38,255 nucleotides of DNA from Gemmatimonadota bacterium (GTDB lineage: Bacteria; Gemmatimonadota; Gemmatimonadetes; Gemmatimonadales; GWC2-71-9): positions 1-38,255 of the forward strand of contig JADFIT010000013.1 of assembly GCA_022566515.1 (NCBI GenBank). Direction: 5' to 3'. The notes below the pieces were generated by a model, which was not told the DNA's origin, did no database searches, and was given only the letters and a program-made list of their open reading frames with translations. The position numbers and the translations under genes were made by a program. Every line of letters starts with the position of its first letter. Position 1 is the first letter of the stretch. Below, piece after piece: positions 16,233 to 17,552 of the stretch.

Positions 16233-16435
16233 TGAACTGCTTCGTGTGTCGCGAGCCGGTCACCGCCCATATCATCAGGGCACTGAAGAACAGAGACGGT
16301 GCGGTCGGCTGGGGGCGGGTTTGCCTGCCCTGTGCTCTGAAGCACAACCTCGGCGGCGTGTTGTACCTGCCTAGTAATATCGCAGACGAGTGGTTCACCC
16401 CGCAAAGACCCGAGCGCGACGAATCGAGCCGCTAA
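16232..16435 (+). CDS. CxxC microprotein, copy 2 of a tandem pair
   Basis: A 67-residue paralogue of the preceding protein. It has CFVC (3-6) and CLPC (31-34) at the same positions and the shared HIxRxLK and GWGR segments; about 22 of the first 47 positions are identical. The C-terminal tail differs, is longer and ends in a charged PERDESSR. The start codon overlaps the upstream stop by one base. A hairpin with a short T run spans its stop codon and probably ends the transcript. The pair looks like a local duplication that has diverged. Function is unknown; zinc binding is inferred from the four cysteines. Confidence 0.7.
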   Translation: MNCFVCREPVTAHIIRALKNRDGAVGWGRVCLPCALKHNLGGVLYLPSNIADEWFTPQRPERDESSR

Positions 16436-16453: not shown

Positions 16454-16638
16454 GTGACCTAGGACACGCTCGATTTGAGTCACGGTGTTGCTGAAAGCCA
16501 GTAAGTGCTGTCAAAAGCGATACACAACAGTGCGGCCCAGGTCGTTCTTTTCCAATAACTGCTTGTGCTGAAACCACCTGAGTTTGTGGCACCGGTATTG
16601 CTCTAGAATAAGGACGGTAAAGAAAGTCGAGCAGTCAG

Positions 16639-17292
16639 ATGAAAAACTTGCCGCTCCTAATTGTGCTCACGATCACAGTCGCCACGCGCGCTGTAGCACA
16701 GGAGCAGCTTGTTGCCACAGTTAGTAACGATGTCTCAGTCGCGCCAAGCCATACCCTGCGACTAGAGATTGCCCCCCACATCTTCGACGAACTCGACGCG
16801 TTGGCGGATACACTTCACGTGGAGACAGTTCGCTGCCTCATCGGCACCGTGAACGGCAACCGCGCCGCGATCGATCTCGCGTGGCAACCGCCCATCCGAT
16901 TCAGCGAGTCCACCAGGGTCGGGTACCGGTCGTGCCCCAGAGCCACAATCGCCCTCTGGCACAATCACCCAGAGTTATCGGGCGTCGACGCCGAATACGC
17001 CTGTTACCTCTCGCACATCGACCTTCAGGAAGCGAGTAACCCCTTGGCGCCGATCGTCCAGATCGTTCAAGTCAACTCCCGAGTGGCTTGCTGGTGGAGC
17101 AAGCGCCAGGTGTTACGGGCCGTGGGCCAGCCTATCCTGTGGCCTCTCGAGACGCAGCGTCGGGGTGTACACGTAACCCTGACCGACGCCTGCAACCGGT
17201 GGGTGGCGCTGCCGCCTTGCATCCTGGATCGACGCCTCATTGCACACGGCATGATTGGCGCTGTCCGTGCTCAACAAAATCGATATCGATAG
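16639..17292 (+). CDS. Secreted JAMM/MPN-like putative metalloprotease
   Basis: A 217-residue protein with a clear signal peptide (MKNLPLLIVL, then a probable cut after AVA at 20), so it is exported. The mature part carries JAMM-type metal-site elements in order: Glu62 in ETVRCLIGTVNG, HNHP (His108, His110), and CYLSHID with Ser125 and Asp128. In JAMM/MPN+ proteases the two histidines and the Asp bind zinc and the Glu activates water. The gap between the second His and the Asp is 18 residues, seven more than the common H-x-H-x10-D spacing, which indicates an inserted loop. Several cysteines (66, 99, 122, 151, 185, 194) could form disulfides outside the cytoplasm. Substrate is unknown. The 203 bases upstream hold a TAGAAT that could be a -10 box. 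The gene is convergent with the 61-residue gene. Confidence 0.65.
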   Translation: MKNLPLLIVLTITVATRAVAQEQLVATVSNDVSVAPSHTLRLEIAPHIFDELDALADTLHVETVRCLIGTVNGNRAAIDLAWQPPIRFSESTRVGYRSCPRATIALWHNHPELSGVDAEYACYLSHIDLQEASNPLAPIVQIVQVNSRVACWWSKRQVLRAVGQPILWPLETQRRGVHVTLTDACNRWVALPPCILDRRLIAHGMIGAVRAQQNRYR

Positions 17293-17338: not shown

Positions 17339-17366
17339 TCCGTCCTTCCGTCCTTCCGTCCTTCCG
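17339..17366 (-). repeat. Tandem octamer repeat ACGGAAGG (about 3.5 copies)
   Basis: Read on the minus strand, CGGAAGG followed by further ACGGAAGG units begins directly after the TAG stop codon (17369-17367) of the 61-residue gene. A related array, ACGGAANG, directly follows the stop codon of the leucine-dehydrogenase-like gene at 34964. Confidence 0.8.
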
Positions 17367-17552
17367 CTACCCGCAGTGCCGGCACCGCACGTACTTGAAA
17401 ATCTGGTCCCGATCTCCCTCCTGCATGGCGTAGGTTACCAGGACGCGTAGCACCTTTTGCTCGTCCTGTAGCTTGTATGTTGCGGCCATTTCTTGGAGAA
17501 ATTTGCGGTGTTCGGCGTACAAAGCGGATTGTTCCGTGGTGCTGTCGCTCAT
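17367..17552 (-). CDS. Small protein with C-terminal CxxC tail (unknown)
   Basis: A 61-residue, mostly helical-looking cytoplasmic protein that I do not recognise. It starts MSDSTTEQS, has a charged amphipathic middle (EHRKFLQEM, LQDEQKVLRVLV), and ends IFKYVRCRHCG, which puts a CxxC pair at the very end. Two cysteines alone would need a partner or a dimer to hold a metal. The ATG has GGGGA about eight bases upstream. It is convergent with the JAMM-like gene, and an octamer repeat follows its stop codon. A longer frame from 17604 in another phase is less convincing. Confidence 0.6.
   Translation of the reverse strand: MSDSTTEQSALYAEHRKFLQEMAATYKLQDEQKVLRVLVTYAMQEGDRDQIFKYVRCRHCG

Follow-up and report, generated by a model that had tools for sequence, protein, structure and literature searches.

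A family of predicted exported JAMM-fold proteins in Gemmatimonadota with a lengthened metal loop

Among the described JAMM proteins, those of the Prok-JAB family (PF14464) are stand-alone peptidases of ThiS/E1-type gene clusters, while CsRpn11, Rpn11, CSN5 and AMSH act intracellularly on ubiquitin-like proteins via the elements Ins-1 and H2 (PMC6043591). CsRpn11, an Rpn11 homologue from Caldiarchaeum, holds the ubiquitin tail in a groove between helix H3 on one side and Ins-1 with helix H2 on the other (PMC6043591), and the zinc ligands of human AMSH-LP are H347, H349, and D360 (PMC9313428). According to a survey published in 2012, the prokaryotic JAB domains known until then were all intracellular, whereas the Tox-JAB-1 and Tox-JAB-2 domains it described are exported and, together with RadC, may be nucleases (Zhang et al., 2012; PMC3482391). 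The Tox-JAB domains mostly occur at the C-terminus of large delivery proteins that have immunity partners. The JAMM fold is probably extracytoplasmic also in the JAB and NlpC/P60 peptidases of phage tails. Literature searches on exported JAMM proteins, or on JAMM proteins in Gemmatimonadota, returned nothing relevant.

The window analysed here comprises 38,255 nucleotides, positions 1 to 38,255 of contig JADFIT010000013.1 from a Gemmatimonadota bacterium (GCA_022566515.1). At positions 16639–17292 it contains an open reading frame with an ATG start encoding 217 aa, on the + strand like all window features given below, which, judged by its homologues and by the selection acting on it, is a real gene. 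The closest relative, the orthologue L022 from a Gemmatimonadetes record, is 61% identical to the window protein. Homologues were found in 21 of 298 Gemmatimonadota genomes in a single-sequence search and in 33 of 395 in a profile search, with a patchy distribution across several families and genera, and one genome of the same genus had no homologue. These counts cover the Gemmatimonadota; beyond the phylum, one contig scan with the divergent window protein was run, in which L022 was the sole homologue found. Searches of viral, phage, and plasmid sequences with the window protein or its relatives gave zero homologues. Codon comparison with L022 yielded a dN/dS of 0.18, and four other close pairs gave 0.08–0.20, values by which the gene is under purifying selection.

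The Pfam, NCBIfam, PHROGs, and PDB sequence searches returned no significant family, and no Pfam or NCBIfam model attained its cut-off for these proteins. The family is thus unnamed, as none of the annotation libraries used gives it a name. In the profile search, the genomes G111, G160, and G232 each had two family matches, one strong and one weaker. A further candidate, L021, was dropped as a chance match, since its open frame reads as a KdsB-like protein.

The alignment used throughout comprises 24 proteins that are 18–61% identical to the window protein. Besides the start, its invariant columns were E62, C66, L67, G69, C99, H108, N109, H110, P111, S125, and D128, and the nearly invariant ones were P84, W107, C122, V143, and W153. 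Judged by these columns, the motif residues stay fixed against a drifting background in the remainder of the protein. The complete JAMM catalytic set of Glu, His-x-His, Ser, and Asp was present and invariant in all 24 members. It consists of Glu62 (16822–16824), the predicted general base; His108-Asn109-His110 (16960–16968), of which H108 and H110 are predicted zinc ligands; and Ser125-x-x-Asp128 (17011–17022), the predicted oxyanion helper and third zinc ligand.

In the window protein, S125 follows H110 by 15 positions, with the 14 residues 111–124 between them forming an extended metal loop (16969–17010). This departs from the classical MPN+ spacing, His-x-His-x7-Ser-x-x-Asp, and from the step of 8 positions, with 7 residues between, that was measured from His to Ser in proteins from related genomes (9 Prok-JAB, 11 RadC). 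Since all Prok-JAB and RadC proteins compared have seven residues here, and the ligands of AMSH-LP have the numbering given above, the seven extra residues are real. Across the family, the His-to-Ser gap is 12–35 residues, of clade-specific length and always longer than the canonical 7, so that on the aligned sequences a long metal loop is a family trait. A first-pass annotation of this DNA had placed E62, H108-N109-H110, S125, and D128 at these residues, which the open reading frame and the 24 invariant sets bear out. Its count of seven extra residues was exact for the window protein (14 versus 7) but does not describe a fixed family trait. The search it proposed for exported homologues with the same spacing likewise succeeded in part, as exported-looking homologues exist and keep the motif residues, but with a spacing that varies from 12 to 35.

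The same annotation had read the N-terminus as a signal peptide, and the features of this segment agree with that reading. Residues 1–20 (16639–16698) form a predicted Sec signal peptide, MKNLPLLIVLTITVATRAVA/Q, with a basic start, a hydrophobic core, an A-x-A end, and a putative cleavage site at A20/Q21. The core has a Kyte-Doolittle value of 2.36 over 13 residues, compared with a best value of 1.10 elsewhere in the protein. A comparable N-terminal hydrophobic segment was found in all 24 members, with signal peptides assessed by eye and hydropathy and the start codons of homologues picked by eye; some of these segments end in a signal-peptidase-like A-x-A, while others resemble an uncleaved anchor.

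The cysteines of the mature protein point in the same direction. Cys66 (16834–16836) and Cys99 (16933–16935) are invariant, are separated by 33 residues in 22 of the 24 members, and are predicted to form a disulfide, with Cys99 located in a hairpin that takes the place of the helix usually found before H-x-H. A second predicted disulfide links Cys122 (17002–17004), which was present in 23 of the 24 proteins and lies three residues before S125 in each protein that has it, to the fourth core cysteine, Cys151 (17089–17091), in place of which other clades have a Cys a few residues away. The number of cysteines after the N-terminal segment was always even (n = 24), with four in 21 proteins, six in the window protein and L022, and two in L052, from which the third and fourth core cysteines are absent together. 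Their constantly even number and fixed positions imply two core disulfides, and the pairs C66–C99 and C122–C151 best explain the pattern. Even, positionally fixed cysteines behind a signal peptide or N-terminal anchor are what is seen in exported disulfide proteins, and the pattern agrees with an oxidizing compartment. Two genes for VKOR, a disulfide-forming membrane enzyme, are present in the genome.

Two features lie apart from this core. The C-terminal tail, residues 177–217 (17167–17289), had a pLDDT below 50 and contains a further cysteine pair, C185/C194 (window 17191–17220), which was modelled with low confidence and is common only to L022. The member L052 (G155:C18), with its two core cysteines, is divergent and carries an insertion before the Glu.

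Two AlphaFold2 models were obtained. The first, built from 20 sequences, had a core pLDDT of about 90–96 with poorly predicted ends, and the second, covering residues 38–176 (16750–17166) and built from 24 sequences, reached a pLDDT of 92.4 and a pTM of 0.87. When either model was compared with the PDB using Foldseek, the best 50 matches were all JAMM/MPN structures, with E-values for the second model from 3.4e-05 and TM-scores of up to 0.61 by query length. The matched structures included CSN5, Rpn11, CsRpn11 with its ubiquitin, AMSH/Sst2, Cap3, BRCC36, PfJAMM1, and the Jab1 domain of Prp8. The TM-scores were modest (about 0.5–0.6), which points to a divergent version of the fold. The predicted order of elements, namely strand, helix, strand with E62, strand, short hairpin, strand with HxH, loop, helix with S-x-x-D, strand, strand, and helix, is the JAMM order, and the placement of E62, H108, H110, and D128 agrees with JAMM topology as judged on predicted secondary structure alone. 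The first-pass annotation would have been abandoned had the predicted fold not been MPN, and it passes this check with both models. By predicted fold and residues, the family belongs in the JAMM/MPN superfamily.

Sequence comparison pointed to the same relatives more faintly, and the weak matches that recurred were to JAB models. Prok-JAB matched 3 of the 24 members in Pfam (best E 0.03), and the JAB models of PADLOC gave E-values of 0.003–0.006. In hhalign, the family aligned with Prok-JAB at 8.5e-4, matching E62 and HxH. The Prok-JAB proteins have the predicted order helix-Glu-strands-HxH-Ser-x-x-Asp in common with the family, but the sequence signal is weak, and the window protein stays below the PF14464 gathering cut-off and thus has no Pfam family. 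Compared with Prok-JAB proteins, the members of this family are predicted to be exported, have a gap of 12–35 instead of 7 residues, lack the helix before HxH, appear to contain two disulfides, and have no ubiquitin-like or E1 neighbour in the loci read. The same genome encodes, on another contig (C170), an ordinary Prok-JAB protein that lacks a signal peptide. Taken by sequence and model, the window protein is a divergent JAMM that fits the superfamily by fold and residues while failing the classical spacing and the Prok-JAB cut-off.

A further difference from the intracellular enzymes lies between E62 and H108, where the AlphaFold2 model contains no helix. The distance from E to H is 46–48 residues in the family and 60–63 in Prok-JAB, and the hhalign alignment to Prok-JAB has a gap of about 12–14 residues in this stretch, next to C99. 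The distance by itself is no proof, since it is short in RadC as well (49); it is the absence of the helix in the model that counts as evidence. CsRpn11, Rpn11, CSN5, and AMSH were the best structural matches and have the same catalytic residue set, yet the wall with which they hold ubiquitin-like proteins is absent from the model of this family. If the model is right, the second wall of the groove is missing, and a hairpin pinned by C66–C99 stands in its place.

On this combined evidence, we consider it probable that the protein is a zinc hydrolase with a JAMM/MPN fold that is exported and acts as an envelope peptidase with a remodelled substrate site. The course of events that we infer, from export and disulfide pairing through zinc binding and catalysis to the type of bond and the substrate, would be as follows. 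The Sec system would export the protein, with the N-terminal helix serving as a tether instead in some relatives, and the two core disulfides would form in the oxidizing envelope. A zinc ion would be held by H108, H110, and D128, E62 would activate the zinc-bound water, and S125 would steady the intermediate, as in JAMM peptidases, to hydrolyse a peptide or isopeptide bond. The peptidase activity is assumed here from the modelled fold. With the helix that forms the wall of the ubiquitin-tail groove gone and the short hairpin pinned by C66–C99 in its place, the longer, variable metal loop, pinned beside the zinc by C122–C151, may act as a new lid that sets specificity. Since the site appears to be rebuilt in this way, the substrate is probably an envelope peptide or protein rather than an intracellular ubiquitin-like protein, and the protein probably cuts something other than ubiquitin-like proteins. 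The first-pass annotation had taken an exported JAMM protein lacking a ubiquitin-like, E1, or E2 neighbour to suggest a different substrate, perhaps in the envelope or outside the cell. This is still the best reading, strengthened by the groove helix missing from the model and by the cysteine pattern. Such genes were seen neither among the ORFs of the window nor around 20 homologues, all read from sequence, and the ordinary JAB gene lies elsewhere.

An alternative that we regard as unlikely is a secreted JAMM-fold nuclease or toxin-like hydrolase that acts on DNA or on other cells, comparable to the RadC and Tox-JAB clades, for which cutting of nucleic acid has been proposed. It draws on the HNHP motif at the metal site, which the family has in common with RadC (HNHPSG) and which hhalign detects, on the nuclease role proposed for the exported Tox-JAB-1 and Tox-JAB-2 domains and for RadC (PMC3482391), and on the missing wall of the ubiquitin-tail groove. 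The hhalign match to RadC (1.9e-3), however, covers only 15 columns around HNHP. RadC proteins resemble the family in their E-to-H distance (49 compared with 46–48) but have no signal peptide and an 8-position step from His to Ser, and the window protein has neither a RadC profile match over the JAB domain nor the HNHPSG-x-P-x-PS-x-x-D spacing. Tox-JAB proteins resemble the family in carrying JAMM-like residues in exported proteins (PMC3482391), but none of their profiles matched here: Pfam gave no match to either toxin family, and membership in Tox-JAB-2 (DUF4329, PF14220) was rejected, as none of the 24 members had a Pfam match and the hhalign value for a DUF4329 protein was only 0.055. No DUF4329 protein was found in the organism's own genome. 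Moreover, RHS and other delivery domains are absent, the loci have no immunity-like partner in common, and a small stand-alone protein under purifying selection at partly syntenic loci argues against a toxin. Phage JABs appeared in the viral fold search, but in contrast to the phage tail proteins, the family has no phage context and no NlpC/P60 partner, and no homologue was found in phages or viral contigs.

The gene neighbourhoods differ between clades. In the window and at the L022 locus, the gene is a solitary one, with a Ser/Thr kinase-TPR gene on one side and a gene for a TonB receptor on the other; purH then follows on the opposite strand. One clade has it flanked by pilT/pilC-type genes on one side and, on the other, by a PilS-like kinase together with a PilR-type sigma-54 activator. 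A second clade has it in convergent orientation to an ispE-like gene, identified from a GHMP-kinase match and sequence reading, and in a third, lgt- and tpiA-like genes are nearby (sequence reading). Neighbour clustering found no conserved operon partner, and none common to all loci. Neighbouring genes were called with a simple ORF finder on GC-rich DNA, and small partners could escape it. Two further observations concern the window locus: a small ORF at 16238–16435 (+), MNCFVCREPV...GRVCLPCALK..., with two C-x-x-C pairs and no Pfam match, lies between the kinase and JAMM genes, and a short run of repeated TCCTTCCG units at 17340–17370 (+) lies directly downstream of the gene.

Comparison of the DNA upstream of the window gene and of L022 revealed a candidate sigma-54 (RpoN) promoter, TGGCAC-CGGTA-TTGCT (TGGCACCGGTATTGCT), at 16587–16602, 36 nt before the ATG, which agrees with the consensus at 11 of 12 positions. 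The sequence TGTGGCACyGGTATTGCTC is kept in L022 at 18 of 19 positions, while the upstream DNA has otherwise diverged. A scan for sigma-70 promoters in the upstream region found nothing. The 3.59-Mb genome has rpoN and contains five exact TGGCAC-N5-TTGCW sites, whereas the reversed pattern occurs twice. Among the other four, just one (L113, G000:C221:16908–16923) is in non-coding DNA and clearly a short way ahead of a gene; it lies 75 nt before an Hsp20 gene and suggests a sigma-54 stress regulon in the organism. For the JAMM gene itself, the site suggests sigma-54 control in the window lineage. In the clade with pil genes (L003–L008, L011, L032; alignment A7), a conserved block, TTGGnAGCGGTnTnGCAAAGTGCAAGAG, which is -24/-12-like, lies about 45–63 nt before the homologues, although most single sigma-54 sites there were not significant.

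Read more narrowly, these data could tie the JAMM enzyme to type IV pili or a sigma-54 envelope response, with a pilus protein, a pseudopilin, or a stress-exposed envelope protein being trimmed or matured by it. This special case of the envelope peptidase reading is slightly less plausible than the nuclease. The pil neighbourhood of the one clade, the near-perfect, conserved promoter of the window lineage in a genome with rpoN, and the Hsp20 site speak for it. The neighbours in other families (ispE-, tpiA-, lgt-like, and others) are different, however, and no sigma-54 site stands out upstream there; even in the clade with pil genes, the gene faces pilC in convergent orientation and is not part of its operon. 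The neighbourhood may reflect simple inheritance.

It is more doubtful still that the protein is an MPN-like envelope protein without catalytic activity, serving to bind metal or in a structural role. Inactivity is common among MPN-fold proteins, and catalysis could suffer from the lengthened metal loop and the absence of the helix. Inactive MPN proteins, however, usually lose motif residues, whereas E, H, H, S, and D are invariant here in 24 of 24 members; their invariance in diverse homologues, together with purifying selection, argues for retained catalysis. That an unrelated fold carries the JAMM pattern by coincidence is barely credible: no curated family model scores above its cut-off, but the model is confident, the best 50 PDB matches are exclusively JAMM/MPN, weak JAB matches recur, and five residues invariant in 24 proteins, purifying selection, and the position of the motif on an MPN fold argue against chance.

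JAMM enzymes are almost always interpreted as components of ubiquitin-like systems. The export signal, the paired cysteines, and the lack of the ubiquitin-tail helix in this conserved stand-alone family suggest that their zinc site has here been relocated to the envelope, where it serves another function. We tentatively propose, with somewhat less than even confidence, an undescribed envelope branch of JAMM proteins that has lost the groove, gained two disulfides and a variable lid, and acts in the envelope by cleaving a peptide or isopeptide bond outside ubiquitin-like pathways, under sigma-54 control in some lineages. The family would offer a direct test of which parts of the JAMM fold are needed for catalysis and which only for ubiquitin recognition, and it points to an unknown peptidase activity in Gemmatimonadota.
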